Assembly: GCA_037043015.1 (NCBI GenBank)
Contig: CM073323.1
Coordinates: 4,216,001 to 4,280,000, forward strand
DNA: 64,000 bases
Direction: 5' to 3'
Source: Bryum argenteum
Lineage: Eukaryota; Streptophyta; Bryopsida; Bryales; Bryaceae
The notes beneath the pieces are model-generated. The model was given only the letters and a program-made list of their open reading frames with translations. It was not told the origin of the DNA and searched no databases. Shown piece by piece: positions 25,180 to 57,240 of the stretch (its first letter is position 1; every line of letters begins with the position of its first letter). Both the position numbers and the translations under genes were made by a program.

Positions 25180-25990
25180 TCTTTTTCTTTGAGGGAGCCA
25201 CGTTCACATCGCCAACACTTTCTTTCTTTGAGGGACACATGTTCACATCACCACAACTTTCTTTCTTTGAAGGACCTACGTTCACATCACCACAACTTTC
25301 TTTCTTTCAGAGACCCACGTTCACATCACCACGACTTTCTCTCTTTGAGGGACCCACGTTCACATCGCCACGACTTTCTTTCTTTCACCACAACTCTCTC
25401 TTTGAGGGACCCACATTCACGTCACCACGACTTTCTCTCTTTGAGGGACCCACGTTCACGTCACCACGACTTTCTCTCTTTGAGGGACCCACGTTCACAT
25501 CACCACGACTTTCTCTCTTTGAGGGACCCACGTTCACATCACCACAACTTTTTTTTTTTCAGGGACCCAAGTTCACATCGCCACGACTTTCTTTCTTTCA
25601 CCACGACTTTCTCTCTTTGAAGGACCCACATTTACATCACTACAACTTTCTCTCTTTAAGGGACCCACATTCATATCGCCACCGCTTTCTTTCAAGGATC
25701 TACATTCACATCGCCATCGCTTTCTTACAGGGACCCACGTTCACATCGCCACCGCTTTCTTTCTTTCAAGGATCCACATTCACATTGCCACCGCTTCCTT
25801 TCATGGACCCACGTTTACACTGCCACGTGTACATTGCCCGCGCCTTCCCGCGCGTCTTTTTTCAGGGAGCCACTGTTCACACTGCCACGTTCACATTGCC
25901 ACCATTGTTTTTCAGGGACCCATGTTTACATTGCCACCTCTTTCTTTCTTTCACGACCCACATTGAAATCGTCATCACTTCCTTTCTTTG
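25180..25990. repeat. 39-bp tandem minisatellite, about 20 copies
   Basis: Units of about 39 bp read GGGACCCACGTTCACATCAC, then CACGACTTTCTCTCTTTGA. Copies are regular up to about 25650 and more decayed after. Since 39 is divisible by 3, a plus-strand frame of 277 codons stays open (repeating SPRLSLFEGPTFT). That frame comes from the repeat period and has no other sign of being a gene. Confidence 0.9.
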
Positions 25991-26029
25991 AGGGACCTAT
26001 AATATCACTTTTGTTTTACAACCGTGACC

Positions 26030-27460
26030 ACCTCTTAATTTTGTTGAATCGGTGGTGGTCACTTATTACAAACTTCGCTTATCTTCTTTGACAAGCCACC
26101 ACTTACTTTTTTTCACAAAGCCAATGTTTATTTCCCTTGACAAGCCACCTCTTATTTTCTTAGACAAGCCACCGCTTATTCTCTTATTTAAACAAGTGAA
26201 TGCTAATTTACCTAAACAAGCCACAGGTTACATTTTTAGACTATCTAGGAGTTATATTCTTGAATAAACCACGGGTTACGTTCTTGGAAAAGCCATTGTT
26301 TTGTTTCTTTGAGAGACTCTTGGTTGTTTCCTTTTGGAAAACCAATGGGCCCAATTGTTTTTTAACAAGCTAATAAGTGTCGCTCTCTTTTACGAACCAA
26401 TAGTTACTTTATACAAACTAATCGAAGTCACTCTCTATTTACAAACCGATAGGCATCACCCTCTTTTTACAAACCAATGCCCCATAAGGGTAGTTCTTTT
26501 CTTTTACAAACATATGGGCGCATGTATCTTTTTACGAACCAATAAGCGAGCTCCACTCTCTTCTTACAAACGAGTAAGTGCCACTCTTTTTTTACAAACC
26601 AATGGAAGTCGCCCTTTCTTTGAGATCCTTATGGAAACCACCTATTTCTTACAACACGTCATTACTTATCTTCGTTGACCAATTTTTATTTATCATTATT
26701 GGAAAATTCTGAAACCTATTTATTTTTGTTGGGAAGCCACCACTTTCTTCCTTTCAGAGACTCTTGGTTGTCTTCTTTCCAAAAAACCAATGGGCATGGT
26801 TTATTTTCAACAAGCAAATGGACGTTGCTCTCTATTATGGACCAATACGTGTTACTCTTTTTGTACAAACTAATGGGGTCACTCTCTTTGTACAAATTAT
26901 TGGGGGTCACTCCCTTTGTACGACCTAATGGGCCACTCTCTTTGTACAAATTAATGGGGCCACTCTCCTTGTACGAACCTCTTTGTACAAACCAATGGGT
27001 AGACCCTTTTATTTACAAACCGATAGGCAGATCCTTTTATTTACAAATCAATGCCCCCATGCTCCATGGAGAAGCAATTCCTTTCTTTTACAAACCAATG
27101 GGCCTCAATATTTTTTTACAAACCAATTAGTGAGCACCACGCTCTTCTTACAAATCAATAAGTGCCACTCTCTTTTTCCAAATCAATGAGCGTCACTCTT
27201 TCTTTGAAAATCTTGTGGCAACCACTCATTTCTTCAGCAAGTCATTAGTTATCTTCATTGACAAGCCACCACTTTCTTTCATTAGAGAACTCATGGTAAT
27301 TTTATTATTAAAAACCAATGGCTGTTTGCTTATTATTCACAAAACTTGTGACCATCACTTAGTATTTCTGACAAAACACCGCTTATTTTTATTCAACAAG
27401 TAAGTGCTTGATTTTCCTAACCAACCACCACTTATCTTCATTCGACAAGTATCAATAAGT
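26030..27460. repeat. Degenerate tandem repeat of about 30-40 bp
   Basis: The motif CTTTTTTACAAACCAATGGG plus variants of CACTCTC recurs at about 30-40 bp spacing with heavy divergence. An earlier part has GACAAGCCACCACTTATTTT. It adjoins the 39-bp array and may be an older relative. Open frames in it (to 27130) come from the repeat. Confidence 0.7.
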
Positions 27461-29640
27461 AAGATAATAGTTCAAAATTGTGAAAAACACATACATATAA
27501 TTCATATGAAAACTTTGTCGAAGTAGGAGTTGGTCAAATAACACCTAATTGATAGAAGTTATATACTATCTTCTCATAATCTGATGAAACTCCAAGCTAC
27601 AAAGAAAATAAAATATAAAAAATAAAACTTTAACCTCCCTATAATGACTCAAGAAAATTCTAATAAATTTTATAAAGGTTACAAATGCACGAAAATAAGT
27701 ATGTGAGTAACATCTCAAACTATATATCTTAGAATCTATTTGATTCACCCTTCTAAATCTATGGGGAAAACTTTGTAAACAAAATAAGTATTAAAAATAT
27801 GGTAGTAGTAGATGAAAGTCTCACCACTATAGTCCACCCAACTATTGTGGGGGGTCTTTGGACCTTGTTGTTTGGGTACCTCAAAGCCCTTTGGGGGGAT
27901 ACTATGTCAAGTATCTTCAAGGCATTAATAACTAGGCTAGAAATTAGCGTAGTTATAGTGTCCACCCTCGAGAGGGGGAAGTAGTATTGTTCCAATTTCC
28001 CCTTGTCCGGTGGCCATCGGGATATTAGCATTACGAACGGACACTTCATTCACGCCGGCCCCTTAGAAAGGGATCGGAGTTTCTATCTATCTAGATGAAA
28101 GTCTAGAATTATATATTCTTTTGTTTGGAAATTTTTTAAATACAAGAATTACAATTTTAAACTAAGCAAATTTAGGTTACTAAGGGAGTAACTTACAAAA
28201 TTATTGAAAGTTCATATTACGACTTACAATGTTTGATCCAAAAACTTCAAGTATGTTGATATGTATTGAAAATATACAATTTGTAACAATGTGATGTGAT
28301 AAATTACATGCATTCCTTACTATTCTCATTATTTATTGAACTAACCTCAATTCAAGTGAAAAAAAAATTTGAATGAGATATATGAATTGTATTGAAGCTT
28401 GAAAGTTTACTAACCTTCTTCTTTAGTATAACCATAAACTAATAAAAGTATGGAGAATCATTTTTTTATTAGATAATTTATTAAAATTTGTTATGTATAA
28501 GAGAATATAACCTCTCCTCAAAACCTCAATTTTGTTAAAATGGCATTATTCCGGTAAATTGGCACTATTTGGGGTGCTTAAAATGAAGTAAATAACGTTG
28601 GTTTTTGTCAAGTTTTGACATGATAGGGTAAATATTTCTAACCGCATTTCAAAAACAACAATGTTATTGAACGGGCATTCAAAAATATTGCCATTTGACT
28701 ATGTCCAAAGGTCAAAATCCATAAAAATGTGTGATATTATGGAAATTTTGGTGATGTTATAGAAATCATTTGATATTACGGAGTACTTGTGTGATATTCA
28801 TAAACATGCCATTTTGCAGGCATAAATACTTATGAACTTCAGTTCAAAAATATGCTTGTTTTAGAACGCGACCAAAATGGCTTATAGGAGATTTGGCAAA
28901 ATGGCACAAAGAATACCACCATTTTTACGGAATTGAGGTTTTAAATAACACTTTGATTTGGCTACATTGTGATAATTTGCTTCACATATACCTTTACAAT
29001 TTTCGTTTGTAAGAATTTGTTTGGTGGTGCCAACAATTAAGAATCTCTTGGAATTTTAGAGAAAATTTCTTCCTTTTCATTTATTGCATTTCAATTCATT
29101 AACTTTATTGTTGGAAATTTTATGAGATCTTCATCTTTACAACCTTTCATAAAATATATGTGTAGACCATGTGAATCTCTTGTTTGAATTCTTCATTAGT
29201 GACACTATTAATCTTCATCCTTTTTCACTATTATTTGACAACCTTTTATGCTACTATATAAATCTTGTTGTCACATACAACCTTTCATGAAACCCACGTA
29301 TAAATCTCAAACATTAATTTTATGCCTAACTAGCTTATTTATTTTAACTTGTTTGTGAACATGTTTATATTCTTTGGATTACAATTGTGTTCACTTGCTA
29401 AATTTTTATTTTTAATGCATGGAGAAAAGTGGACTAAATGTAAGTGTAGAAACTGGTCTTTGTGTCACTTTCATTTACCCTTGGTTTGAGCCATATAACC
29501 AAAGTATTCGCGGTCCGTTGTATTGACTCTTGGAACTACAAAACATCAAATTCGGCCAATGATTATGCAAAAACTTAATTTAAGTGGTATATTGAGAGCC
29601 TAAAAAATCTGTTAACAATCTTTTTCGTTAGACAAAGTTA
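27461..29640. other. AT-rich DNA with one GC island and one MITE
   Basis: Mostly AT-rich and featureless. A GC-richer island at about 27810-28075 stands out sharply from its surroundings (for example CCTTGTCCGGTGGCCATCGG), but neither strand has a recognisable product. MITE family A copy 2 lies at 28521-28941. Confidence 0.45.
28521..28941. mobile_element. MITE family A, copy 2 (about 420 bp)
   Basis: Left end AAACCTCAATTTTGTTAAAA and right end TTTTTACGGAATTGAGGTTT mirror each other and match the ends of the copies at 5664 and 62098. It is about 160 bp longer than those, with extra internal sequence. The AAATGGCA motif recurs near both ends. Non-coding. Confidence 0.82.
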
Positions 29641-29699
29641 TCATTTATGGACCTTTGGACTAAGCGTACAGTTATCATTGTTGATTGTATAAATGATAC

Positions 29700-30020
29700 C
29701 AAGACCAACTACGTCCTATCGTATAAACCCTTCTAGTCACGTCTTACGTATCAAATTATTTGACTACGTCCTATCGTACGACCATCTACGTCATCTCGTA
29801 CTAAACATTTAGACTACGTCCTATCTTACGACCATTTGCATCATATTGTGCCAATTGTTTTACTACGTCCTATCTTATAATAATCTACGTCATATCATTC
29901 AAATCTTTGACCACGTCCAACTGTGTACTACCAAGCGTTCTATTCTACCAACTTTTTCAACAGATTCCTTTGACCACATCCTATCATGTATTAACAACTC
30001 TTTCGACTGCATCCTATACT
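29700..30020. repeat. Degenerate tandem repeat of about 50 bp
   Basis: GACTACGTCCTATCGTACGA followed by CCATCTACGTCATATCGT recurs about six times at roughly 50-bp spacing, more diverged toward the right. Confidence 0.75.
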
Positions 30021-30049
30021 CTAAAACCCCATCGTTGAAGATAAATAAT

Positions 30050-31080
30050 ATCTAATGAAAGGTTTTGAAAGGGTCTTTAGTGCCGGTATGAGGAGTTGTA
30101 TAATCGTGTGGTGAAATAACAAACCCCATCGTTTTCTATAAAAATATCCTAATACTTTTTCTCAAAGTGTTGGTTTAAACTCGAAAACTTCCTATAAGCG
30201 TTTCTATTTAAAAATTTAACACATAGTTGGTATGAAGGGTTGTAAAGGCATGTGTAGACAAAAGATGAACCCCATCGTTTAAAATAAGATAAAAAATTCT
30301 CTACTTGAAAAGTTTCAAAGTGTTACCGGAAACTTTGCAGGGAGCGTCTCAATTTGGAAAGTCGACACATAGTCAGTATCACAAGTTAATAATTATATGG
30401 TGGGAAGACAAACTCCACAATCCGAGATGAAAAATCTCAAGTGAAAAGTTTCAAAGTGTTGCTCGATTTAAACAATTGACACATAGTTGTATGAACGGTC
30501 ACAAGTTGATGGGAAAACAAAGCCCAATGTCCAAGATAAAAACTCCATAAAAAACTATTTCAAAGTGTCGGTGAATTGTCAATGAAAGCATCTTTATTAA
30601 AAAGAAACTCATACATAGATGCTATGAGGGGGCTGCAAGTGTGGTGAAAAGATAGACCCCATCATTGAGGATAAAAAAAATCTGCAACGCAAAGTTTCAA
30701 AGTGTTAGTGGAAACTTCATAAGGAAGTGTCGTAATTTGGAAAGTGAACACTCAATTGTTATGAAGGATTATTAATAATTGTTGGAAAAAAAAAATTCCA
30801 CTATCGAAAATAAAAAATCTCAAGTGGACATTTTCAAAGTGTTGGTGGAAGGTTCACATGAAGCGTCTCCACTTGCAAAGTTCATATGTAGTCGTTACGA
30901 AGAGTTATCCAAAAGATGAACCCCATTGTCTACGAGAAAAATTCTCCAATTAAAAGTTCAAAGTGTCGGCGAAACCGACACATAGAGAGTACGAGGAGTT
31001 GCAGTAAAAAGATGAACCCCATTCTCTAAGATTTCAAAACCTCCAATAAAATGTTTCGAAACGAGCACAATTATACTTTA
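30050..31080. repeat. Degenerate tandem repeat of about 110-150 bp
   Basis: Each unit has TTTCAAAGTGTTGGTGGAAA, then GCGTCTC, AAAGTTGACACATAGT, a GGGTTGTAA block and GACAAACCCCATCG with a stretch of AAAAATCTC. About eight copies lie at 110-155 bp spacing. No coding capacity. Confidence 0.75.
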
Positions 31081-32024
31081 GTGTGTCCGAAGAGGCACTA
31101 AAAAACATATTTGTGGGGGTGGAAACAGGAACCGCATTGACAAAGTGCAAGAGTCTGGAAGAGGGTGAGTGAAGTGGGAGAGGAATTGCAGATCCTTTGT
31201 GGCAGTGGGTTGCATGCGTGTCTGTAGGAGGAAATGCGACCTAGAAAGTGGCCAACCCCAACTGTCCAGCGGATGAGGGATTCCACGGGTCCGGGCAAAA
31301 TCCTTCCGCCACCGTAGTGGGAGTTGTACAATACCCAAAAATTTCTTGCGCAAATACGGAACCATTCGGGGTGCACATACTCCAAGGGGCCGTATCTGAG
31401 GAAGCTGCAATGATGATGCAGTGTAGTTTGAAGTAGTACAAGTAGGCGATGCACCCCCACGGCATTGTGCGAATTCTTATTGTGGCGGCCGGGTCTTGCA
31501 CTGATGATCGCTGCACCGCCGCAGCTCAGCGCCGTCACCTTTCTTTGCCTGTCCTTTCTCTCGCCTTCAATTCGCCGATCATGGCCTTCTTATGATTCGA
31601 CCTCTTAAACCCTCCATCATTCCTCTCCCTTCCTCCCGCATCGCATTGCGGACCTGTCTCTCCGTCCTTCTTCTTCCGCGCTTTGCGCATCAATCCCGTT
31701 CGTTCTGTTTTGTGCTCTGAGCTTCCAGCTCGCTCTTGGTAGTTTTTCTGCGCTCTGTGTTTCTGTTTTGTGCTCTGAGCTCCCTTTTCGCGCTTCCAGC
31801 TTGCTCGTGATATTTTTTCTATGCTTTGCGCATCCAGTGCTCTGAGCTCTCCTCTCGCTTCCAGCTTGATCGTGACAGTTTAAGGTGAGGAATTCGGGGA
31901 TGATTTTCTTTGCTCGCATTGTGGGTTTAGTGAAGCGATGTAGGTTTCATGGGCAATTGCTGGAAGTGATTTGTGTAATTTGCTGTGCAGGCGGTGATCG
32001 ATCGAAGGTTGTGTTGTGTGCGCG
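31081..32024. other. Argonaute upstream region and 5' leader
   Basis: GC content rises from about 31080. Open minus-strand frames at 31078-31538 show no recognisable motif. From about 31600 the plus strand looks like the Argonaute leader. A probable 5' untranslated intron runs from an AAG|gtgagg donor near 31885 to a ctgtgcag acceptor at 31990, placing the start codon 34 bases into the next exon. The promoter should lie before about 31600. Confidence 0.5.
31679..31880. repeat. Imperfect direct repeats in the Argonaute leader
   Basis: Three imperfect copies of a 50-80 bp block (CGCTTTGCGC..., TGCTCTGAGCT, CGCTTCCAGCTTGCTCGTGA) lie head to tail just before the presumed 5' untranslated intron. 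They are pyrimidine-rich on the plus strand. Confidence 0.7.
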
Positions 32025-35000
32025 ATGGAAGGAGGTTCAGGTTCCGGTGCGGAAGCCAATCTTCCCCCGCCTCCGCCCGTGCCGGTAGGCGCTATCCCTT
32101 CTCGAGCGCCAGGCTTCGGAGGTCCCAATGGCGGAGGGTCCAATAGCGGCAATGGAAGCGGCGACTCAGCTCTCGCCGCTCTTGCGCTCTCCCCCCATGT
32201 CCCAGTTCCAGCGAAAGCTACAAGACCCGGCTTTGGTACTGTCGGGCGCCAGACAAGACTATATGTCAATCATTTTAAGGCTATGCTTACAAAGCACGAA
32301 GACGTTTTTCATTACAATGTGAGCTCCTCTCTCGTTTCTTCGCTTGCTGATGGGGGGTTCTGGGTTTATGACTTAGTCTGCAGGGTTTTGGGCTGATCGA
32401 GTTGTTTTTTGAATTTCTTTTATCTTTTCGTTTTTTTTTCTGTGCAGGTTTCCATCGAGCCGGCCCAGACGAACAAGGAGGTGTGTCGGGAGATTTTCAG
32501 GAAGCTGAGGGAGACGTTTGGAGACGCGGAGTGTGGCGGTAAGCAGGGGGCTTACGATGGTGAGAAGTCTTACTTCACCAGCGGGAGTCTTCCCTTCAAC
32601 ACCAAGGAGTTTCCAATTTTCCTCGACGACCGCAGAGGTCCCTCGTTCCGACCTGGTGGTGACCGGGGACGTAGGCCGGGTGACAGCCCCCCCACACAGA
32701 GCCCACCGCCAGGTACGAACGGAACGCAGTTTTTTTTGCATGTAATTGTTTAACGACTTCGTTGTTCGCAATTTCACGTGAAATTTTTGGTCGTTGTCTT
32801 GCAGGGAGTCCAGGACAAGAGCTGGTTCCCAAGAGGCGGAAGACCATAGCCCGAGGACGAGACTTCGTCGTCAAGATCGAGTTCGCTGCGGTCATCCGCA
32901 TGAAGTCAATTAATGACATGCTCAAGGGCCAGATGGGGAAGGGCGACCACGAGCAGGAGGTTCGGGCCCTCGATGCCCTGCGTGTCCTGGACATTGTTCT
33001 ACGTGAAAGCGCTTCCCAGAGGTAATGGAATCTCATGTTTTTCCTTTTGCTTGAATCTATCCCAAATAATTCTTTCCCATTTTGCAGAGGGTTTTAATAA
33101 GAAGTTTCGTTTTCGTTTTCCAGAGGTTATCTTCTCGTCAAGGACAACTTTTTCCATCGCGATCTGGGTCAGGTAGGTGACCTGGGTGAAGGGGTGGAAG
33201 CCTGGAGAGGCTATCACTCGAGTGTCCGACCAACGGGTCTTGGTCTGACGCTGAATCTCGATGTTACCACGACCACCGTGTTGAAGCCAATTCTTGTGGA
33301 GGAGTTTCTGAAGGAGCGCTACAATGTCCGAGACCTCCAGCAACTTCAACAACGAGACTGGACCAAGGCGAAAAGCGTGCTGAAAGGCGTCCGCGTCGAA
33401 ACCACTCATATGCAAGTTTCGCGGACACACAAGATCTCCGGGTTCAGCGATCGGCCCATCCGCGACCTCAAGTATGTACCTTTCTTTACATACTTCGCAG
33501 TTTTTCACTTTCTCTTTTCCAACTACTTAACATTGTCGCTGTTGTTGTTGGTTCAGGTTTACGAAGAAGGTTAGGCGCGGAGAGGGTAACGTGGAAGAGC
33601 AGGAAATGTCAGTGCAGCAGTACTATTTCGATGTGTACTCCTACACCTTGAAGTACCCAAATCTTCCAGCACTGGATGTCGGCAACAAGAAGAAGCCAAC
33701 GTTTATCCCTCTTGAGGTAATTTAATGTTTTTTTTTCGACTATGAAACCTTCTTGTCGTTTCTAGTGCTTACAGCTTTTTTGGTGCAGCTGTGCAAGATA
33801 ATGGAGGGACAGCGCTACGTTAAAGCTCTCTCCAGTAACCAGAGGGCGAAGCAGATCGCTGCCTGCAAGCAGGCTCCACAGGACCGACTGGGGATCTGTG
33901 AGAGAGCTATGAGCGTGAGCAAGTACAGCACCGACAGGGTGATTGCCGAGTTCGGCCTCGTATTCGAGAACAAGCTGGCCGGTGTGAACGGCCGAATGCT
34001 TCCAGCCCCGCAGGTATACCAAAATCCTACTATCCTTGAACCTAATCACCACAGCTGTTCCAAAACTTACACTAATCTGCCCCTCGCCTTGTGTCCGTAG
34101 CTGGAATTTGGGGATGGGAGGACCGAGGAACCCCGTGAAGGCCGGTGGAACTTCAACAACAAGGTTCGTTTGCTACACTTTTGTTTGTTCGGTTCTTTCC
34201 AAATACTCTGTCTCACCCTAAAGATTGTGCTTGCAGAAACTGAAGCAGGGAGTTCAGATCGACCCATGGGCTGTGGCCGTGTTCGATTCCCGCTGCCATG
34301 ACGCGGACCGTGTAGCGCAGCAGCTTCTGGAAAGCTGCGTCAAGCGAGGAATGCGAATGCGCCAGGCAGCTGCGGTGGAGAGGGAGCCTCCGAATGCGAT
34401 GGGCTACTCACCTGAACAGCGTGTCGAGCGCATGATCACCGCTCTCCGACCCCACAAGCCAAGCTTTATCCTGGTCATCTTACCAGACAAGGACAGTCCC
34501 ATCTATGGTCAGTGAATCCTCTCTCTGAGTTCCTGCATTGAATTCCAAGCGCTATCATCTAACGAGTCGTACTCTCCTGTGGCAGTTCCGTTCAAGAGAT
34601 TCTGCGAGATGAAGATCGGCATCATATCACAGTGCATGGTGAAACCCCGCCAACTGAACGATCAGTACCTCGGAAACCTGGCCCTGAAGATCAATCTTAA
34701 GGTACGTGTAGTATCATTGATAATGCGCAAGTCTCTAGAGATGAGTATGTGAGCTTTCTAACGTGATCGATTGTGGTGCGCAGATGGGAGGGTTCAACTC
34801 GCCTCTGACTGCGCGCATGGTCCAGTCCCTTGGCCCTTCCACGATCATCTTCGGCATGGACGTTTCTCACGGATCGCCTGGCGATGCCAATGTCCCGTCC
34901 ATTGCAGCCGTTGTGGCAACCAAGAACTGGCCGGATGTTTTCCATTATACGACTCAAGTGAGGACTCAGCCAGCGAAGATGGAGATGATCGAGGGGCTTT

Positions 35001-36298
35001 ATGAGCCTGGAGGTGGCATGGTCAAGTATGTATATCTATTCTGTTAAACTTTCTGAAATTATTTCTTATTACTGCTTGTGCCATGGTTTACTTTCGTTTC
35101 TTTGATGACTAATGTTCGCCTTCTTCAAATTACAGAGAGTGCCTGAGGGCCTACTACAGCACCTGCAGGAACCTCCAGATGCGCAAGCCGAGCCAGATTA
35201 TCATCTACAGGTATCATTGATTTTTATCATTGGTTATTTGTCTGGAAATCTTTTTTTGTGGGAAAGACTTAACGAACTCCAGTATTAGTATGCTGAACGT
35301 GAAGCTGGTACCGATTGTTTCAGGGATGGAGTCAGTGAGAGCCAGTTCGCCGAGTGCCTTCAAGTGGAGTTCACGGCTTTCAAACGGGTATAATATCCAT
35401 CATCCCTTCAGCTCATACTTGTCGTCCTTTTGTAGCATTCCGGTGCCAACCCATTGTTATCTGCACAGGCCTGCGAGGATCTGGAGCCTGGATACAACCC
35501 AGGAATCACCTTCATCGTTGCTCAGAAGCGCCACAACACGCGCTTCTTCCCTCACGGCAACGACAAGATGAAGAACGGAAACGTTCTGCCAGGTATGGGT
35601 GAACCCTGTCATACCTTTACTAAGTTCATTCGAAACCATCGATTATATCTGATTCATTTGTGTGTACGTTTACAGGTACTGTCGTGGACAAAGATGCGTG
35701 CCACCCTCACAACCACGACTTCTTCCTGGTTTCTCAAGCAGGGCTAATCGTAAGCGTTCCATCTTCACCACAGTACTTTCATTTCTTGAAGTTTTCATTC
35801 AGCTTTTATTCTTGTTCGGTGTCTTACTTAGTGCGCATTGCAGGGCACATCCCGCCCGACTCACTACCACGTCCTCGTGAACGAGAACAAGCTCACCCCT
35901 GACGACATTCAGACGCTCACGAACAACCTCTGCTACACGTTTGGACGATGCACCACTGCAATATCTATGGGTAAGCCCCGTCTCAATACTCTCATTCGAT
36001 GGGAGTAACAGTTCTCTTGTACCAGTTGATTGTCTCGATACTTTTATTGAATGTGAGGATCTATTTTTGTGTACTAACTGGTTGGCTTGGGCTTGGAATG
36101 AATACAGCGGCTCCAGCGGCGTATGCCCATGTTGTAGCGACAAGGTACAGGAAGCTCGTGGATACTTGGGGAGGAAGCTCCGGTGGCTCTGATTCCACCT
36201 CTCAGAGGAGCGGCAAGGAGGGAGGAGGTCCTCCACGCCCTGTTCAGGCCCTGCCAGCACTGAAGATCAAGCCTGAGCATTCTATGTTTTTCTGTTGA
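32025..36298 (+). CDS. AGO4-like: Argonaute protein, AGO4/6/9-like clade, complete
   Basis: Sixteen coding exons: 32025-32318, 32448-32712, 32805-33021, 33124-33471, 33557-33716, 33789-34013, 34101-34163, 34237-34507, 34586-34701, 34784-35025, 35136-35210, 35324-35387, 35469-35592, 35676-35749, 35844-35970 and 36108-36298. They give 951 aa with every phase consistent. The N terminus is Gly/Pro-rich. An N domain ([15 protein letters not shown]), PAZ (about 300-450), MID ([20 protein letters not shown]) and PIWI (about 600-910) follow, ending MFFC. Slicer residues are present: D679 ([10 protein letters not shown]), E720, D760 ([10 protein letters not shown]) and the HYH at 853-855. [10 protein letters not shown] and VRTQP point to the AGO4 clade, which binds 24-nt siRNAs and guides RNA-directed DNA methylation. 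However, NGNVLPGTVVD and [13 protein letters not shown] resemble AGO1-type or early-diverging AGOs, so a basal position is possible. Clade assignment is by eye. Confidence 0.95.
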
Positions 36299-36644
36299 AC
36301 CCATCGGCCAGCTCGAGCTTGCGACTCCCTATTCGTGGCTCGAGGATGAGCTTGTTAGTGCCGATTTCCGGACCTGCGTCCATCTTTCTTTTTCTGTGTT
36401 GCTAGTGCATAAGTGGCAATTTTGCAGTCCTGCCACTAATGTACATAGACAGAGTTGGGTATGCACTTTCCACACTTTTTTACTTTGTCGAAAAAAAAAA
36501 ACAGAGATTTTTTGTTTTTGTTTCTGAGAACTTCAATACCTGTACTTCGAACCATGTTGATGCCAACTTTGAACCATACTGATGGTAATATTGAAGTCTC
36601 TTTGAAGACCGGACATTTTACTGTGTATTTACGCTGTACTGTTC
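36299..36644. other. Argonaute 3' untranslated region and downstream
   Basis: Plain sequence after the Argonaute stop codon with an A-run at about 36490. It is probably 3' untranslated region followed by spacer. No gene seen. Confidence 0.5.
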
Positions 36645-36890
36645 GTCGTGGGGGGTTAAAATTTCACATCAATCAACTATTATTTGAATGTCTGTCGTGG
36701 GGGGTTTAAAATTTCACACCAATCAACTCTTATTTGAATGTTCGTCGTGGGGGGTTAAAATTTCACATCAATCAACTATTATTTGAATGTCTGTCGTGGG
36801 GGATGAAAATTTCACACCAATCAACTCTTCTTTGATTGTCTGTCGTGGGGGGATTAAAATTTCACATCAATCAACTCTCCTTTGAATGTG
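36645..36890. repeat. 49-bp tandem repeat, five copies, just after Argonaute
   Basis: Unit GTCGTGGGGGGTTAAAATTT, then CACATCAATCAACT and a T-rich tail. Copies 1 and 3 share CACATC...CTATTATTTG, while copies 2 and 4 share CACACC...CTCTT, so the array seems to have grown by copying a two-unit block. It starts about 350 bases after the Argonaute stop codon. Confidence 0.92.
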
Positions 36891-37429: not shown

Positions 37430-37570
37430 CATGAGAAGGTCCCCATGAGAATGGTATAATTTTATGTGCTCTGAATCGCTTCAGCATTTCGAAGGGGGCA
37501 GAATTTTGGCCTCAGACATGGTGTAAGTTTTAAGGTGCTCTGAATCGCTTCAGCATTTCGAAGGGGTAAC
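37430..37570. repeat. Short repeat of CTCTGAATCGCTTCAGCATTT
   Basis: CTCTGAATCGCTTCAGCATT followed by TCGAAGGGG occurs twice (about 37470 and 37536). A related TTGAATCGCTTCATGAGAAGG lies at about 37420. Function unknown. Confidence 0.7.
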
Positions 37571-39760: not shown

Positions 39761-39775
39761 GATCATCAAAGTTTG

Positions 39776-45897: not shown

Positions 45898-47880
45898 TAT
45901 CGGTTGAGACATCTAGATTCACATGTTTTGTACTTGGTCACATGTTAGTTTCAGTGATTACTGTTATTGTGAGCATATTCTTTTAAAGTTGCATCAGAAT
46001 TGTGAAAGACCACTGCTTTCAACCTCACTGCATGATTCCATATAAGCGTTACCAGTGGAATCTCTTCATGTGTCAAATATTATTTTTAAAAATAATAACT
46101 TACAGAATGTATCCAACAGTGTCCATTGACTACCCATCAAAAGTTAAATTTGAATAATAGAAGCTCAAGTTTGCATCAATTACCGATTCGACTCTATCGA
46201 CCGAGACATCTACATTCACATGTCTCGTACTTAGTCGCGTGCAAGTTTTACTGATCACCGTCTTCGTGACGATATTTTTAAGGAGTTGAATTAGAATTTG
46301 GAAGATCAGTGCTTTCAACGTCAATGCATGCATGATTCGATAGAAGAGTTTACCAGAGGAATCTCTTCATGTGTGAAAGCTACTTTCAACGAATAAGTAC
46401 GTATAGGATGTATTCAACAGTGACCAATTTGAGTGCCTACCAGAAGTCAAATCTGAATCATAAAAGTTAAGGTTCTTATTAGTCACCAATCCGACTCTAT
46501 CGACTGAGACATCTAGATTCCCACGTCTCGCACTGAGTTGCATGCAAGTTTCAGATACTACCATCATCGTGAAGATATTCTTAAAAAGTTGAAACAAAAT
46601 TATGAAAGATCAGGGCCTTCACCCATAGTGCATGTATGATTCAATATCTCAAATCTTATTTTAAAAATACGTACTTATAGAATGTATCCAATGACCATTG
46701 GACTACCCACCACAAGTCAAATTTGAATCATAAAAAGCTCTTGTTTCCATCAGTCATGGATTACACTCTATCACCAAGACATCTAGATTCACATATCTCG
46801 TACAGAGTTGCCCGCAAGTTTCATTAATCATCGTTACGTGAGGATTTAAAAAAAAGTTGAATATGAATTGTGAAAGATCAGCCTTTAACCTCAGTGCATG
46901 TATGATTCGATAAAAGTGTTACCACTAGAATCTTTTCATGTTGAAATTTTACTTTCAAACATAAGTGCTTATACAATATATGCAACAGTCAAGTCAAATT
47001 TGTATCTAAAAGCTCAGATTTCATTAGTCACGGATCCAACTCTATCGATTGAGACATCTAAATTTACATGTCTATTTTTGCAGGCAAGTTTTGGTGGTCT
47101 TTGTCATGGTGAGGATGTTAGAAAGTTGAGTTAAAATCGTGGAAGATGAGTGCTTTTAACGTTGATGCATGGAAGATTTGATAGAACTGTTACCACTTGA
47201 ATCTTTTTGAGTGCCAAAGCTACTTACAAAAAATAAGTACTTATGGAATGTATACTAGATTGAGTGTAATCTTTGGACTACCGATGACAAGTCAAATTTG
47301 AAGTATGAAAGCTGAAGTTTCTCTTGGTCACTGATCCCACTCTATTGACTAAGAAATGTAGATTCACATATCTCGTACTAAGTTGCATGCAAGTTTCAGT
47401 GGTCTTCGTTATCGGGAAGATAATTTATAAAAGTTGAATCACAATTGTGAAAGATTAGTGCTTTGAAGCGAGAGCATGTATGCTTCAATAAAAGCGTTAG
47501 TACTAGAATATTTTCGAGTGTTAAAGTTATTTCCAAAAAATAAGTACTTATAGAATGTATCAACAATGACCATTGAAGTATCCACCAAAAGTCAAATTTG
47601 TATTATACAAACTCAAGTTTTGATTAGTCACCAATCCCACTCTATCGACTTAGACATCTACAATTTACATGTCTCTTAGTAAGTTGCATGCAAGTTTCTC
47701 TGCTCACCGCCAAGTTGTGGATATTTTGAAATAGTTGAATCTAAATCGTGAAAGATCAGTGCTTTCAACATGAGCGCATGTATGATTCGATACAACTGTA
47801 ACCACTCAAATCTTTTCGAGTGTCAAAGTTACATTGAAAAGAACAAATACTTATAGAATGTATCCAAGAGTCATCATTGA
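45898..47880. repeat. 290-bp tandem array, second block (about seven copies)
   Basis: Same unit and same order of blocks as the array at 41770-44133, in the same orientation. Divergence between copies is similar, so the two blocks were one array before the interruption. Confidence 0.88.
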
Positions 47881-48860
47881 ATTGCCCATACAAAGTAAAA
47901 AAGGGCACTGCTTGTAGTTCGTCACCAACTACCGTGTTGGATTTGATAAGACATTTGAATGTTGGTACGAGAAAGGTCATTCTTCGAAGTTGGTAGCACT
48001 TACCAACTGTTGTGTTTAATTTCATCAAAGAATGTAAATTAGAATTCATAAAGGTCATTGTTTGAAGTTCGTCAACAACTACCGTCTTGGATTTGATAAG
48101 ACAATCAAATCTTGTTATAAGAAAGGTCATTGTTTGAAGTAAATAACATTTACAAACTGTTCTCTTGGTTTTCATCATAGAATTAAAATTTGGTTTCAGA
48201 AAGGGCACTGCTTAAAGTTGCTCACCAACTCCAATATAGCCGTGTCGGATCTTATAAGAAGATTGAAACTCGATACAAGAAAGGTTAGTGTTTGAAGTTG
48301 GTGGCACTTTTCAACAATTGTATTGGATTTGATAAGACGATTGAAACTTGCTACGAAAAAAATCACATTTTGAAATTGGTAGCACTTATCAACAATTGAC
48401 CAATTGTCATGGATTTCATCATAGAGTTCAAATCGAATTCTAAAAAGGACATTAATTCAAATAGAATCAAATTGGGTTTTAAAAGGGTGAGTGGTTGAAG
48501 ATTGTAGCTGTTGCAAACCGTGGTGTTGAATTTCTGAAGAGAGTGAAAAGTGGATTCCAAAAAGGTGAGTGTCTCAACTTGGTGTATGTTTCCAACCCTC
48601 CTGTTGGATTTAATAAGATTTTGAGTTTTTGACAAGTGGATTTTTGAAAGGTTGGTGTTTCAAGTTGGCAGTACTTACTAAGTGTCGTGTTAGATTTCAT
48701 AAGACAATTTAATTTGGATTTTGAAAAGCTTAGTATTTGAAGTTGGTATCACTCACTTACTTTTGTCTTAGATTTCATAAAATTTCAAAAACTTAATCTC
48801 AAGACTTAGGTTAGTATTTGAAATCTGCGGCAGTTGCCAACTATCATAGTGAGAATGTTT
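47880..48860. repeat. Degenerate 80-bp tandem repeat, about eleven copies
   Basis: Units contain TTTGAAGTTGGTAGCACTTA, CCAACTGTCGTGTTGGATTT, and CATAAGACAATTGAAATTGG with AAAGGTCA. The GTTGGATTTGATAAGAC core recurs at about 66-117 bp spacing. The same family occurs in the opposite orientation at 51270-51740. Confidence 0.82.
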
Positions 48861-51269
48861 ACTACACCTCTAGAATCAGTAAGTTGTTATTAGTGGAAAC
48901 CAGATTTCAGAGTTTTGGTACTTCAAGCATAGAGTGGTTACCAAGCTCAATTCAAGAATTCAACGACTTAGTGAAGTAAGACTTAAATTTTTTGATTCCT
49001 TATGAGCTGTATATCAATGAATTTTTGATTCTCTATAAACAACATTTAATATAAGTTATGTGACAATAATCAATTTCACTTTTTTTTAAAGAAGTAGTTG
49101 GAGTTTACAATATGTTTTGATGTATTGATTAATGAATCTTTTTGATAGGATGTGCATAGAGTAGCAGGAGAAACAAATTCATTAAGAAAAATCTCATGAC
49201 CTTAATTGGAATCCTTTTGCATTTATTGTGGATTGTGGATTGCTTGAGAATGATACTAATCATGATTGAAATAAACTATATTTTGCTTGCACAAAAATTT
49301 CTTCATAAAGATACAAATATAATTCTTTCGCATAGTATAACTTCTAACTCTAGAAAGATACCAAAATATTTCTTGTCTAAATACTTGTTAAAGTCTAAAG
49401 TTAAAATTAAAGTTTTAGAAATAACAATTTTAGTTGTTAAAAGACACAAGTACAATCATGCAAATGTTTTACTAGAAATGAAAAGAATGACGATTGTAAC
49501 ATGAATCTAATCAAAAAATCGTAAAGGAGGCCTTTTTCTCTTTTTCAATTTTCCTTTTTTCTTATTTGAAAATTTCATTTGATTGTGAATAATAAATATT
49601 TTATCTAATAGTTTGGGTCAAGGTCCTATTAGTGAGTATCAGTTGTATTCTTGTGGATTCTTGTGGAGTATGGACCTATTGAGGAATTTGATATGAATAT
49701 AATCTATGGAGTAAAAATATTAGGAAACTAAGATACATGAGCTTTGTAAGGGTAGGTTTTAAAAAAGAGTATCCAAAGCCTAATGGTATACTGCAACTTT
49801 ATGGTGACTGACCTAATTGTACGTGTGGGGAACTTGAAGGGGCATGTGCAACAATGGGTACGAGACCTTATTGTTCAAAATTTGCTTATTGATTAATATT
49901 TCATTTATAAAATTATTGTTCTTGACTTTCTTTGGTGTGAAGATATTTTTGAGAATTATGCTATCCTTCATCAACTTTAAAATCTAGGATCAAGTACCTC
50001 AGTCACCTCATTGTGTCTAGGATTGTCAAATTTGATTTCTCCTATCTTCAATCAAAATATGCTAAAAGGGAGTATCAAAATAAATGCTCTAGGACACATT
50101 AGCTAAAAGGGAGTCAAAAATTTGGCAATCACTAAACTTGGCCACCTGAGCGATGTGTATGTTGATGGGGCTGGCTCAATGGCAAAGTAGAGTCCCTGTC
50201 GTGCTTGCTAGGGGGAATGCTAGTTGTTACATCGGCCTACAAGGCAGAAGGTTGCTTCTTGGACAACCCTTATTGCCCTTGGCTTGAATGGGGGGGGGGG
50301 GGGCGCTTGTCCCTGCCGGAGGCCTTGGCCTACTCGGCCGCGAGTTCAACGACTGCCCACGCTACGTGGCGACCGCCCTTGGGTTCCACCCGTCCCTCTC
50401 GATTGGTTTGACCGTTGTAAGCCTATCCTAGTCCCGCCACCTCTCTGTAATCTTAATTTGCATAACAAGACTGTGAGTTGCTCCGTGTTGTCTGAGGATT
50501 TAGTAGCTTCTTCATGTTTGGCGGACATAAACCTATGCATATGGTGCATTTAAAAAAAATTGCGTTGCCACCACCACGCGATACTCATCTAGGTACGTTG
50601 CACTAAAACCGCTTTTTCATACCAGAAACTATATTCTAGTAATATGTAGGTGACTTTTAGATGCTAGCAACAAACAACCTTAAGTGGGAGAAAGACAATT
50701 GTATGAGGCAGCCCATGCATTTGCAAAGCTCCTTTTGTAAACTACAAAGTTGCTTGGGTCCTTCCACCTCCTGAGCCCCTACTGTTGACAACGACAAGGG
50801 CGACCCATGGAACTCTTGTGCTTATCACAACCCCACCGTTTTCTCTAACTTCCCTTCACACTCTTGAGGTACCCAACCCGTTTCTACATCACCCTCCTAT
50901 TGCAATTAACAAAAATAGGTGCAATAACATGATTACTTTCGAGAGCTTCATAGTGACGAGGATGTAACTAATCGAAGCTAAAACTGGTCACCATGTTTGC
51001 TAAGTCTTAGTTGTTAGAAGAGCAAGCAAAGGTAGTAAACAATGCGGCAAGCTAGCCATTGCCAATGTCAATTCTAAACTCCTCATTCCGCATTGAAGTT
51101 ACCCAATTCTACTAACTCTCTCAACTTATATGAAAATTAAAGCTTCAAGTGCAGCACTTGATAGAGGATCTCATGTAGTCTTACGATAATTTAATTCATC
51201 AGGCGCTGTTGAACATCCCCATTACCCAGGACACAGATCTTGTAGTGGAATATATTCAAATGTCATAGT
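48861..51269. other. AT-rich DNA, no convincing gene
   Basis: Between the two oppositely oriented 80-bp arrays. The plus frame 49196-49504 (102 codons, Ile/Leu/Lys-rich) has the composition of random AT-rich DNA. A GC-rich island at about 50160-50430, with a run of 15 G near 50290, stands out. It starts with a tRNA-like stretch (GGCTGGCTCAATGGCAAAGT) that resembles an A box, so it could be a SINE remnant, but I see no clear B box. Confidence 0.4.
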
Positions 51270-51740
51270 ACAAGTGCGGGTCTGATGAAATCTAACAAGA
51301 CAATCGGTAAGTGCTACCAACTTTGAAACACTGAGTAGACCTTTCAAGAATCCACTTTTAACAATCTTATGAAATCCAACACGAGAGTTGGTAAGTGCCA
51401 CCAACTCTGACCTTTTTGGAACCCACTCTTCATTATCTCGTAAAATCCAACACGACAGTTGGGTACTTGTTACAAACTTGAAACATTGACCTTTCTTGTA
51501 ACTACTTTTGACTGTCTTATCAAATCCAACATGACAAGTTGGTAACGAACTTCCAACACTAACCTTTTTGGAATCCGATTTCAAATCTAATATGACAGAC
51601 CAGTAAGTAGTACCAACTTGAAGCATTGCCCTTTCTAGAATTCACTTTTGACCGTCTTATGAAATCCACGACGACAAGTTGGTGACGAACTTCAAACACT
51701 CACCTTTCTCAAATCAAATTTTGATTGGCTTAAATGAAAT
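51270..51740. repeat. 80-bp tandem repeat, inverted block (about six copies)
   Basis: Units read ATGAAATCCAACACGACAGT, TGGTAAGTGCCACCAACTT and ACCTTTCTGGAATCCACTTT, the reverse complement of the family at 47880-48860. Spacing is about 65-85 bp. A 134-codon minus frame here lies entirely in the repeat. Confidence 0.85.
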
Positions 51741-52424
51741 CTTTTAACATGCATAATAGCAAAGGCAACTTTTGTTTTGGATTTTCAAACATGAAGCATG
51801 TTTTATAATTGCAAGCCGATTATGTGAAACCGATTATTATTACATTTTTGTGAATTACTTTTTAGATTTCTTTTACATGTTCATGATTTAAATATGAAAC
51901 AACCTTTGAAGATGGAAAATCTTTTGATCCAAGTACCTTTGGTATTAGATTCGCAACAATGCTTTTACATCGAATAGAGTGAAGAAATGGATGATATTGA
52001 GAAGCTATATCCAGATGAAGAGTGATTTGGGAGAAGGCCAGCTCCGCAACTGCAATAGAAGATTTTGCAACGGACCGGAAAGCGCCATTGACCCACCCCT
52101 AAATCCTCTCCCTCGACTCAAGTCGGTCAGCAATGCCGGCGTCGTCCGGACGATGTAACCCGCCGGACCATGCGGACACGGCAATTGACGGTGCCGGCTG
52201 ACTCACCTAAACGCCTCCGTCGGAAACAGACACCCCGCCCACCCCTTTGCTTTCGTATTGCTTTCTGAACTCAAAGACTGTGACTCCTTCCGTTTGTCGA
52301 GCAAATCTCCTCCAAGGTCGACACTGGGTCTCTCACATGGGCATTGAAAGGTGCTCTTGCAGACGTGCTGATTGTCTGATATCGAAATTTCGCTTGCATG
52401 ACCTGAACGAAATCTGAGAGAACG
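51741..52424. other. Spacer with GC-rich patch, no gene
   Basis: AT-rich to 52000, then GC-rich from 52050 to 52260 (for example CCGGACGATGTAACCCGCCG). No recognisable product on either strand. Confidence 0.4.
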
Positions 52425-53010
52425 CTGCCAGATTTGACATTTGAAAGGAAGGTGGAAGCTAAGAAAAAAGAAATGCTGACATGAATGACTCCTCTGATCG
52501 TGGAGCTTTATCACCGTATGTGCAATTGTGTGAGGAGTATGGTAGAGCAGCCAAAAATGGCGCAGTGCCGAAAATGGAGCCCTAGTAATCTTCACTGTCA
52601 CGTACATAATAGTTTCTCCATACAACAGTACCATGTACACGCTGCAAAGATTATATGGCGTCACTTTAGGGCACCATTTTAGGAACACCTATATTTCCAT
52701 CTTTAAAAATTCATTACTTACTGTAGAAGAGTTGAAAAATGATGATTCCACTTGCTCTAGTTTTCTACTAATTTTCCCCATGCACAAAAATTGCTTGCGC
52801 TGGCAACATTCCTGTAGATTTTCTGTGCTGAAAATTGCGCCAGTATAGGACACCTTACCATATTGTATTGTTATTCATACTAAATCGTTGAATGCAAAGT
52901 GAGGGCCCGTTTACACAAGGGTGGACCAACGTTCAGTGAATAATTACTTTTCAACCAATCACATTTGAAGAATCTCACTTTCAACCAATCAAATTTAAGA
53001 TTTCTCATTA
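52425..53010. repeat. Interspersed repeat B, copy 1, split by an insertion
   Basis: Matches 56030-56345 in order: CAGATTTGACATTTGAAAGG, ACATGAATGACTCCT, CGTGGAGCTTTA, GTATTGTTATTCATACT, then ACTTTTCAACCAATCACATT and CAATCAAATTT. The extra DNA at 52541-52859 is absent from the other copy. Identity of the family is unknown. Confidence 0.85.
52541..52859. mobile_element. Probable 319-bp MITE inserted into repeat B
   Basis: Defined by comparison with the uninterrupted copy at 56030-56345. Its ends mirror each other loosely: TATGGTAGAGCAGCC on the left against GGACACCTTACCATA on the right. Blocks inside also mirror (AAAATGGAGCCCTA and TTTAGGGCACCATTTTAGG). Non-coding. Confidence 0.65.
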
Positions 53011-53810
53011 AATTCGTGTCCGGAAGACTTTTCCAAATGTAATGGTAAGTGGCCTTCAACTCGAATATCAATGTGTGCCAATATTTTTCATAACTTGATT
53101 TTGAAAATTTCATCTCTAGGATCTTTTTTAGATCATTGTGCTTGTGAAGTTTTATCAAACTTGATTATATGGATCTTAACCCCTAGAACTCCTTGTGTTT
53201 TTGAGAGTTTGGAATCTCAAACTGCGATTTTCTACCTCTATGCAATCCTTGGGTATAAACCAATTATTCTAGCTTTTTCTAAACTTTTAACTGTAAAATC
53301 TTATATCCGAGTCTATTTTATTTTTTCTTTTGTAAAATCATAACATCCAAAGTCTAGGCCTTGTTTGGGAGACATTGTCTTCATGGTGCAAAGGAGGATT
53401 TGAGTATTGTAACTTTGTAATTTTTGGTTACATTTTTTTCCATGTAGATAAATCTGTTGGGTACGCACATGCAAAATTTTAGAAACTAACTTCGCTTTCT
53501 TGTCCTCAATGGAAATTTTTTTTTGGTGGAAGGTCTAAAAACAACATTACAATAAAACATGCATCACGTTAAACATATTTGATTCAAAAACAAATGGAAC
53601 GGTGAATAGGTGCATCTAGGAATTTTTGAATTTTAGAGTTTGACAAATTTTGAAAGGGAAAATTGAAAAATTACTAGAAATTGTGAAGATTGTTTTGACA
53701 TTTTTGAAGGCTGCTCTTGTAAAATCATTAAACTTTGTGACTTGAGTCACTTTGGAATTTAAGAAGTGATTTGGTTATGATCATAATTTTTGAAAAAAAT
53801 AATTTTATCT
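53011..53810. other. AT-rich spacer
   Basis: No gene. Weak similarity of 53050-53150 and 53600-53780 to the arms of the foldback element near 60200-60620 (TTTGTGACTTGAGTCACTTTG, GGCTGCTCTTGTAAAATCAT) suggests an old relative of that element. Confidence 0.45.
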
Positions 53811-55409
53811 ATATATAAATATATAAAAGAATACGATTACCTGCTAGCGATCCTTTTCCGGTTGTCCGACCTGATGCAGCCGGTTTTCTCTGTTTGCCCT
53901 TGGTGATCCTTCGCGGTGGTAGGGTGGTTTGCTCATGAAAGTATACACGGTATGAAGAGTTTTAAAGATTTTGAAGGATTTCCGCAGGTGGTACTTGATG
54001 GCTATTAAGAATTATTAAATCTTATTAATATAACAAGAGTTGAAGGGACAAGGAATGTGGAACATGTAAAATGGAGCAAAGTAAGGAGTAAAGAGGAGAT
54101 CAACGGAACATGGAACAAGAACTAGGAATTGGGCACGGAGAATGGGAACAAAAACAAATAATGAGAACCATGAATGTATGATAGGAATAGGGAACAAATT
54201 GTGGAAATCGGGAACAAATGATGAAACCAAGAAGGGAAATTGGGGGATGGCCGGATGGGGGAGCCGGAATCGGGAACAAAGGATGGAAACCATGAATGGG
54301 AAATTAGAGGTTGGGAGTGATTAATAAAGAAAAAGAAAATGGGGAACTAGAATAGAACAGAGGACAACTGGGAAGTAGGGATCCATGGAATGAAGGATAT
54401 CCTAAAATTCTTATAAAGCAAGGAGATACAATCAACGAGAGAATCAAGGATAGGGGTCAGTTCTTGAGGAGCACCAAATAAAAAGCTCATCCATCGGGAT
54501 GAGGGAGAGAAATTAATCAAAGACATGCATGGTCATGGCCATTATGAGTTGGTCATGTATACACGACATGAAGAGTAACTGTTCTAAAGATTTTGAAGAG
54601 TTCTCTAAATGGTATGTAGTATTGTGGTTGTTATTAAGAGTTTATTAGATCCCAATAATAAAAATACAAGGAGTTAAAGAGGACAAGGAATATGGAATAT
54701 AAAAATGGGAGCAAAGAAAGAGTCACTTGAGGGGAGATCAAGGGAACATCGGAGGGGAACCAGGAATCGAGATTAAAGGATAAGAATTACGAAAGGAGGA
54801 TGAGAATTACGAAAGGAGGATGAGAACTACTAACAAATAATGAGAACCAAGAACGAATGATGGGAACTACATACAAATGATGGAAACTAGGAACAAATGA
54901 CGGAAACCAAAAAGGAAAGTTGTTGAAATACAAAAGAAATGATGAGAACGGGGAACGGGCCAAAGCATGGGTAACCCAGAAAAAGGGAACGTAGGACATG
55001 CTATAAATCTTAAAAAGTAGGAAGACCATTTACGAGGGAACCGAGGATAGGGTGTAGTTTTTGAAGAGCACCAAATAAAGTGCTTCCCCATGAGACGAGG
55101 GGAACTTACTCACCAATTAATTGAATACTATTTTTATTTTATTTTTTGTCCAAAGGACATCGGTATATAGAAGTCCTAACCTATATCCTTCGGACTAGGA
55201 CATCAAAAAGGGCCGATCAATTCTTTTTTGTAAATCACGTAAAAAACTAAAATTTTTAACTCAGGTATAAAAAGAAATACGTAGTTGGAGAATTCTCAAT
55301 AGGGTATAATTATTTTTTATACCTAGGTATGGATTTTTTACATGTTTTCATAAATTTCGATCTTACCTTTTTGATGTCCGTGTCCGGAGGACACGGGTTA
55401 GGACTTGTA
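53811..55409. repeat. 1.6 kb interspersed repeat, copy 2
   Basis: Same orientation and internal order as 21650-23263, with only scattered single-base changes, a few short indels, a duplicated ATTACGAAAGGAGGATGAGA near 54786, and a short mixed A/T tract in place of the 53-T run. The inverted-repeat module occupies 55171-55406. Flanking DNA outside the stated limits is unrelated to that of copy 1. Confidence 0.9.
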
Positions 55410-56029
55410 CATATTTAAGTAACTTAAGTCCAAGCCTAACAACATCATATATTTGTATTTGTATGATCAATTGTCGCCTTGTAGGATTTTGATTTTGTGG
55501 CTAATGAGCACTAATGGATGTGTTGGTGAGCACAAAACCTTTCAAAGTATGGGAAGACCTCACTAACTCATCCGTACATGAGGAGAGAATTTGGTTCTAG
55601 GTTGGTGTTAGTGATATTTTTATCTCATAAAATTACTGTGTATGTAGATTTACGAATGAAACTATTTTTCCAATGACTATCGACTTGAATGGATTATGAT
55701 AAATACTTTAAGGCAATTACTTTTGGGGTTGTTTCAATTGTGTGATTGATTTGCTCAATGATGTATGACTTATACATATGAACTTGTCATAACTCACAAT
55801 CAATGTGAAATATATATCTAGTTTAGATTATGCTAAGAATATGCCAAGGTCAAAGGTGATGTGGCTCAATGAGATACAACATCACAATTATAAATTTAAG
55901 GAAGCCACTTGATAAAAATACAACACTTACACAATTTTGTTTTTCAACTTCTGACAACAAGGATCATGGTGGTTTTGAAGAATGAACCACGACCTTATTT
56001 TATCTTTTACTATAGCCAACAAGGTGAGG
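55410..56029. other. AT-rich spacer, nothing recognised
   Basis: No gene-like frame, no repeat seen. Confidence 0.5.
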
Positions 56030-56345
56030 GGACGGTGTCAGATTTGACATTTGAAAGGAAGGTGGAAGTTTGCTGCACACACGCGTGACAAAAAAGAAAT
56101 TGCGGACATGAATGACTCCTGTCTATCCTGGGACCGTGGAGCTTTACCAGTGTATGTGCAAAGTATGACAGTATGTGTATTGTTATTCATACTCCATCAT
56201 TGAACATCTGCTTGATAACTAATGCAAACTGAGGGCCGGTTTACACTATAGTAAAGAAATCCACCGCTCACTGAAGAATTTACTTTTCAACCAATCACAT
56301 TTGAAGAGTCTTACTTTCAAGCAATCAAATTTGAGATTTCTTGTT
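56030..56345. repeat. Interspersed repeat B, copy 2
   Basis: Uninterrupted relative of 52425-53010; the shared blocks are given in that entry. It has about 20 extra bases (TTGCTGCACACACGCGTGAC) near its left third. Confidence 0.82.
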
Positions 56346-56379
56346 ACTTTCTTGGCGGAAGACTTCTCCAATATAATGC

Positions 56380-57240
56380 AAAGTTGCAAACCGGCCTTCA
56401 AACAACCTTACCTTATCTTTTGTTGCCAACACCAAGGACCATGGTTTTAAGCAATACCAAGAGCCTTAGCTTAGCTTCTATTGTTAACATTAAGGAAGGT
56501 GGTTTTCATTATCAAAACAACCTTATTGTAACTCTTGCTGTGGATAAGAAGGAAGATTGTTTTTGTCATAATCACCAACTCCCTAACTCCCTTTGCATAA
56601 ATCTCGTTGTCAAAAGTAAAGACGGTGGCTTTCAAAATTTCCAACACCCTTACCTTATCTTTTGCTGTTGATAGCAAAGACAATAGCTTAAAATAATCAC
56701 TTGCAACCTTACCCTATGTATTGATGACAATAGCAAGGAAGTTGACTTTGAAAAATCACCAACGACTAGAACCTTAATTCTTGTTGTTAAATTAAGTTAA
56801 AGAAAATTGCTTGCAAAAATCACCAACACCCTTACCTTATCCCTTGTTGTTGAAGCAAGTTAAGGACAGTTGCTTGCAAGAATCACCAACAACCTAACAT
56901 TATCTCTTGCTGACGATAGCAAAAAAGGTGACTTTGAAAAATCACCAAAGTCAAGAATCTTATCGCTTGTTGTTAAAAGCAAGTTAAGGACAATTGCTTG
57001 CAAAAATCACCAATACCCTTCTCGTATCCCTTGTTGTTGAAGCAAGTTAAGGACAACTGAAATCACCAACAACCTTACGTTATCTCTTGCTGTAGATAGC
57101 AAGGATGGTGACATTTAGAAATCACCAACAACCTTACCTTATCTCTTGCTGCCTTCAAGAAGGACACAGGTTTCAGCAATTACAACCATATGACCTTATT
57201 TTTTGCAATAAAAATTGAGGTTGGTGATTGTGAACAATAC
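56380..57240. repeat. Degenerate 60-bp tandem repeat
   Basis: Units contain AATCACCAACAACCTTACCT, TATCTCTTGCTGTTGATAGC and AAGGAAGGTGACTTTGAAA. At least twelve copies of varied length lie at about 55-75 bp spacing. Open frames in it (56384-56671) have no other support. Confidence 0.82.

Follow-up and report, generated by a model that had tools for sequence, protein, structure and literature searches.

A block of decayed tandem arrays around an Argonaute gene of Bryum argenteum, probably shaped by local amplification, inverted duplication and decay

How does a single Argonaute gene come to be surrounded, within some 32 kb, by many short tandem arrays that appear to have nothing in common? We addressed this question in a 64,000-bp stretch of the Bryum argenteum genome (hereafter the window), which corresponds to positions 4216001-4280000 of contig C3 (30.56 Mb, in a genome of 258.8 Mb and 25 contigs). 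Positions given below without a contig name are those of the window. The array-rich block extends from 25180 to 57240, and array density was measured as the bases falling in same-strand self matches (self-BLAST) at an offset of 10-1500 bp. By this measure, 36.0% of the bases of the block show local tandem-like self-similarity; the 168 overlapping 32-kb segments of the surrounding 264-kb region that lie clear of the block average 3.8% and reach at most 7.7%. About 0.84 kb of the signal comes from a dispersed repeat of 1.6 kb that has repeats inside it. Seven 12-kb Markov-simulated pieces contained no array-like bases in self-BLAST. Four remote 10-kb stretches, picked regardless of arrays, were 9, 2, 0 and 8% array-like, and a fifth, picked because it held a match, 28%. 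In base composition the block is only slightly AT-rich, with 38.8% G+C versus 40.2% for the window. The block is thus a real and locally unusual cluster; the controls being 200 kb of flank and four remote 10-kb stretches, similar blocks may be common elsewhere in the genome.

The original prediction of side-by-side tandem arrays with different units was borne out by Tandem Repeats Finder, self-BLAST, a shift test and nhmmer profiles. Tandem Repeats Finder listed the better arrays; the most decayed ones, with units of about 300 and 80 bp, are visible through self-BLAST, the shift test and the profiles. Periodicity was present at the array positions: in all 11 stretches submitted to the shift test, which had been preselected as arrays, the top shift exceeded the best of 10 shuffles. 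The block therefore contains head-to-tail copies beyond chance, as minor satellite or minisatellite arrays do. Outside the block, the longest array-like run of the flanks is a 1.46-kb stretch to the left of the window (C3:4174106-4175566), partly made of a 53-bp unit, and on the right side of the window a close inverted repeat (59747-60856; 247 bp, 97% identity) has a second inverted pair nested within it (121 bp, 93% identity).

Iterated nhmmer profiles were built from ten seeds and run on the 264-kb region plus six other loci, the reversed sequence serving as decoy (best decoy E 0.51); they led to the classification of the arrays into eight unit families at eleven positions. Treating the 24-bp stretch at 26076-26241 separately, as it has no profile link to the 28-bp stretch, would bring the number to nine. 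From left to right, these are a 39-bp array (25168-25999; units about 77-82% alike), a 24-28-bp array with an internal duplication of about 360 bp (26078-27321), an array of about 50 bp detected by Tandem Repeats Finder and the shift test (29690-30030), an irregular array of about 130-150 bp detected by self-BLAST and its profile (30024-31059), a 49-bp array some 340 bp downstream of the stop codon of the Argonaute gene (36640-36889), an array of about 80 bp (38890-39765), an array of about 290-300 bp on the forward strand in a left (41767-44136) and a right part (45898-47890), a 78-bp array on the forward strand (47897-48793), a second 78-bp array on the reverse strand (51280-51741) and an array of about 60-63 bp (55967-57343, with its core at 56397-57180). 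The two parts of the 300-bp array belong to one array that a 1.76-kb stretch (44137-45897) interrupts, and this stretch is absent from the 3.5 kb that were read of a paralogous array on the same contig.

The predicted figure of at least eight arrays therefore stands, though not their being unrelated. The 300-bp profile detects the 80-bp array at E 8.7e-18, a figure inflated because the iteration had absorbed such hits, and a direct BLAST of a 300-bp array from contig C7 also detects 38865-39070 at 71%, so that the 80-bp unit is related to part of the 300-bp unit. The two 78-bp arrays detect each other on opposite strands and form one family in opposite orientations. No further pair of families was linked by the iterated profiles at E < 0.5, and two isolated weak hits (E 0.41 and 0.15) lay outside the arrays. 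A common ancestor for all units was considered and rejected, the profiles tying only the 80-bp unit to the 300-bp unit and the 78-bp array to its inverted partner. The description of the arrays as mostly badly decayed holds for most of them, the exception being the 49-bp array, the least decayed, with units 88-93% alike.

Whether the units are specific to this locus or dispersed was examined by genome-wide searches, which pass over very common words and therefore give minimum counts. The predicted alternatives appear to apply to different families. No match elsewhere in the genome was found for the 39-bp unit (query 25173-25828), the 24-28-bp unit (query 26300-27300) or the 49-bp and ~130-bp units (all 26 candidates scored); this speaks for local amplification of these four without proving their rarity. 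The other units recur at a few places. The 300-bp family is present at C3:4043059-4045611 (reverse strand), at C7:4755100-4767791 (forward strand) and weakly at C6:4238437; the 78-bp family at C3:4041627-4042975 (reverse strand) and C3:4033219-4034150 (forward strand); and the 60-bp family at three places within C3:4013998-4026617 (reverse strand) and at C8:3192739-3193454. The 50-bp region (29603-29986) recurs once, at C3:5268704-5269088 on the reverse strand (85%). The copy numbers found, taken as lower bounds, are low, again as in minor satellite arrays. The presence of the 300-bp family on C7, and weakly on C6, and of the 60-bp family on C8 indicates that some dispersal also took place.

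Several of these recurrences lie together. Pieces of 39744-57756 match C3:4013459-4047278 in mirror order with 79-84% identity, a divergence that shows the counterpart not to be an assembly duplicate. Five of the matches are non-array sequence and total 4602 bp: 39744-41311 with 4047278-4045698 (84%; about half of it an 840-bp dispersed repeat), 48808-50054 with 4041612-4040438 (83%), 52020-52446 with 4032140-4031702 (81%), 52930-53725 with 4031211-4030383 (79%) and 57193-57756 with 4014005-4013459 (81%). The 300-bp, 78-bp, inverted 78-bp and 60-bp arrays are interleaved with them in the same order in both copies. The duplicate spans at least 18 kb in the window and 34 kb at the counterpart, and the near ends of the two are 208,466 bp apart. 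The mirror-order homology also covers sequence outside both the arrays and the dispersed repeats, as expected of an inverted segmental duplication. The mirror order is imperfect, the 60-bp array having three counterparts, near 4.014, 4.020 and 4.026 Mb. No counterpart was found for 50.1-51.3 kb among the best 40 of 7780 candidates, nor for 53.7-56.6 kb among the candidates scored (the best 40 of 7780 and the best 40 of 8690). The left half is not part of the duplication: a genome search with 29600-37630 gave no counterpart at the duplicate, which places the left limit, as far as tested, between 37630 and 39744, and a short hit of the 300-bp unit occurs at C3:4048468-4048525 (reverse strand), where the mirrored 80-bp array would fall. 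Judging from these alignments, many recurrences of the 300-, 78-, 60- and 50-bp families reflect one inverted-duplication event, which explains why several satellites that look different recur together.

The same data bear on another origin, in which the right half of the block (39.7-57.8 kb) would be one large decayed mobile element carrying the arrays, and the counterpart would result from its having inserted a second time. Such an element would fit the finding of two mirror-order copies, spanning 18 kb in the window and 34 kb at the counterpart, whose arrays follow one order, as well as the opposite orientation of the two 78-bp arrays; oppositely oriented arrays are reminiscent of fold-back elements. 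However, just two collinear copies were found, both on C3 (for these long queries, the best 39-40 candidates were scored), and 10 kb of C7 match the window only at the 300/80-bp arrays and their edges. We consider this origin improbable. For the block as a whole, a single element was rejected, its left half (29600-37630) having no counterpart; the possibility raised at the outset, that the units are fragments of one larger element, thus does not apply to the entire block.

An inverted segmental duplication being the preferred reading of the right half, the dispersed repeats help to place it among other events. The 840-bp transposon-like repeat (40156-40994) is present inside both duplicates and, besides the paralogue, at 39 or more other places (81-84%); a partial inverted copy of it lies at 37636-38147. 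An element of about 325 bp (52534-52862) has at least 37 other places at 95-98% and is absent from the aligned stretch of the paralogue, which suggests that it is probably younger than the duplication. The second copy thus shares with the window the 300-, 78- and 60-bp arrays and the 840-bp repeat, the 325-bp element not being seen there. The 1.6-kb transposon-like repeat with internal repeats (53785/53806-55409), whose right end is weakly palindromic (66-69%), has a second copy in the window at 21622-23263 (92%) and occurs at 39 or more other places among the best 40 of 8690 candidates, of which 31 are listed near full length (91-95%).

The relative age of amplification and duplication can be approached through the 300-bp family, for which we compared the units of at least 200 bases (29 of the 44 rows of the profile alignment, the 15 shorter rows being dropped). 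Units from one and the same array have a mean identity of 0.738 and 0.742 in the two arrays of the window and of 0.736 in the paralogous C3 array; for units from different arrays among these three it is 0.734-0.737. The C7 units are slightly more similar among themselves (0.714) than to C3 units (0.687-0.705). In this family, the only one so compared, arrays do not show the likeness within exceeding that between that is expected of an active satellite under concerted evolution, and the lack of any such excess among the C3 units indicates that homogenisation has stopped. Only the unit at the edge adjoining the conserved flank clearly matches its counterpart by position (0.881), the second-best pair reaching 0.812; we infer from these comparisons that inner units were probably gained or lost differently between the two copies since the duplication. 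The flanks being 84% and the units 74% identical, values that stem from different alignments and give a relative order only, amplification would have preceded duplication. The original prediction had also suggested that the genome tends towards local tandem amplification, which is not supported by the array content of the flanks (mean 3.8%) and of the four remote stretches (0-9%) or by 300-bp arrays in which homogenisation has ceased.

The original prediction also offered heterochromatin as an explanation: the block would be constitutive heterochromatin, for instance pericentromeric, in which minor satellites accumulate under methylation. This reading is compatible with the one that we prefer. 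The block is rich in arrays and contains several dispersed repeats, and expanded satellite arrays are described for the primary constrictions of Lathyrus sativus chromosomes (PMC7004042). The ratio of observed to expected CHG is 0.34-0.89 in nine array groups, seven of which lie below the regional value of 0.80 (0.34-0.78), against 1.10-1.12 in three gene-bearing stretches. For CpG, the ratio is low in the forward 78-bp array (0.57), in the 60-bp array (0.27) and in 48800-50054 (0.26). Divergence among the 300-bp units is greater at C and G sites than at A and T sites, with C-to-T changes of 25, 21 and 14% in CG, CHG and CHH contexts, respectively. However, transversions are raised at CHG as well, and the G-to-A side has no CG excess. 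The substitution contexts are thus ambiguous; we rejected their reading as a methylation fossil and did not use this proxy as support. Moreover, the 300-bp arrays have a CpG ratio (0.72-0.73) close to that of the region (0.70), the 39/24-, 50/130-, 49-, 80- and inverted 78-bp arrays have one near or above it, an intact gene lies inside the block, and both 100-kb flanks are poor in arrays. Taken together, these observations leave heterochromatin a possible but rather doubtful explanation.

We also considered that the arrays could be the remains of genes for tandem-repeat proteins, as the unit lengths of 39 and 78 bp are divisible by three and an open frame of 283 codons runs through the 39-bp array. 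Several overlapping frames are open in that array, as expected of a stop-poor periodic sequence, and its 22 units have similar substitution values at the three codon positions (0.103, 0.124 and 0.103), with a shifting unit phase, so that a coding origin of this array was rejected for lack of codon-position bias. For one open frame in the inverted array of 78-bp units, the codon positions have unequal values (0.215, 0.136 and 0.148), but these figures come from six units, too few to judge. Repeat-protein genes are thus an extremely unlikely source of the arrays. As to RNA genes, nothing in Rfam reached the gathering threshold, and no tRNA was detected (tRNA search with the bacterial setting).

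The Argonaute gene (32025-36298, forward strand) is composed of 16 exons, with GT-AG borders in all 15 introns and 951 codons followed by one stop. It is an intact neighbour of the arrays, neither part of the array system nor its cause. Its closest relative of solved structure by sequence bears the name 'Protein argonaute 10'; by its features, the protein may be AGO4-like. No Piwi match was found at the duplicate (C3:4.01-4.05 Mb), and the most extensive DNA match of the gene elsewhere, at C5:16059554-16064717, consists of pieces of 66-78%. Two other Piwi-domain loci of the same contig, C3:8038035-8040598 (forward strand) and C3:8248809-8250189 (reverse strand), lie in opposite orientation with near ends 208,211 bp apart; they are possibly another inverted duplication, and the similar spacing may be due to chance.

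One segment of the gene (34345-34576, forward strand), corresponding to the end of exon 8 and most of intron 8 (34508-34585), recurs in repeats. A genome search with 34330-34600 gave 30 matches (22 of 22 candidates scored). A 231-bp piece of exon plus intron is present on C1 (93%), with a 78-bp piece 1.1 kb further (96%), and a 66-bp intron piece (34511-34576) occurs, whole or in part, in seven C4 units, at ten further places on C1, at one on C6 and at three on C2. The C4 locus (C4:7376000-7376700) is a tandem array of about 150 bp (4.7 copies in 701 bases), and each of its units that was read contains the intron piece at 89-95%. The motif adjoining this piece in the C4 satellite also abuts the Argonaute pieces at C1:20377700-20379200; the exact 24-mers in common with the Argonaute gene number 4 for the C4 locus and 33 for the C1 locus. 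If the C1 and C4 repeats yielded small RNAs, these would match the gene, and this Argonaute, which may be AGO4-like, may itself load them; the result would be a self-regulating loop that connects satellites with the silencing machinery. We regard such a loop as very unlikely.

Altogether, the block is most likely a non-coding one, produced by old local amplifications with some dispersal, an inverted duplication, dispersed insertions and decay. Tandem amplification of short sequences would have taken place locally in several separate episodes, presumably through slippage during replication and through unequal crossing-over; the majority of the arrays would then have lost homogenisation and decayed, dispersed elements would have inserted among them, and an inverted segmental duplication would tie the right half (39.7-57.8 kb) to C3:4.013-4.047 Mb. 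Which copy came first, like the absence of a function of the block, is something that we infer.

The cluster is accounted for by known processes. Minor (low-copy) satellite and minisatellite arrays are a known kind of sequence in plant intergenic DNA, and the short arrays of the block resemble them in having many units, few loci each and advanced decay, as well as no coding signal in the one array tested well (39 bp); they differ in that eight families lie within 32 kb and make the block 36% array-like, versus a mean of 3.8% around it. The duplication resembles intrachromosomal inverted segmental duplications in that its mirror matches extend across 18 kb or more and take in sequence outside the arrays, with near ends 208 kb apart, and departs from typical ones in being old (79-84%) and rich in tandem arrays, with the 60-bp array occurring three times in the other copy. 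In Lathyrus sativus, as the same report describes, satellites can arise from short tandem arrays inside LTR-retrotransposons (PMC7004042). The likeness to that system lies in short expandable arrays and in the internal tandem repeats of the 1.6-kb repeat of the window; unlike there, an unsystematic look revealed no retrotransposon source for the eight families, none of which was found as a long satellite. In the literature surveyed, at the level of titles and abstract openings, neither such a block nor an Argonaute-derived satellite is described.

These results indicate that a seeming mosaic of unrelated satellites can come from a few local amplifications, one duplication and decay. The block can be read as documenting how minor satellites die out when homogenisation is absent, with the relative order of some steps preserved, and the Argonaute-derived satellite of C4 is the one lead that may possibly be biologically active.
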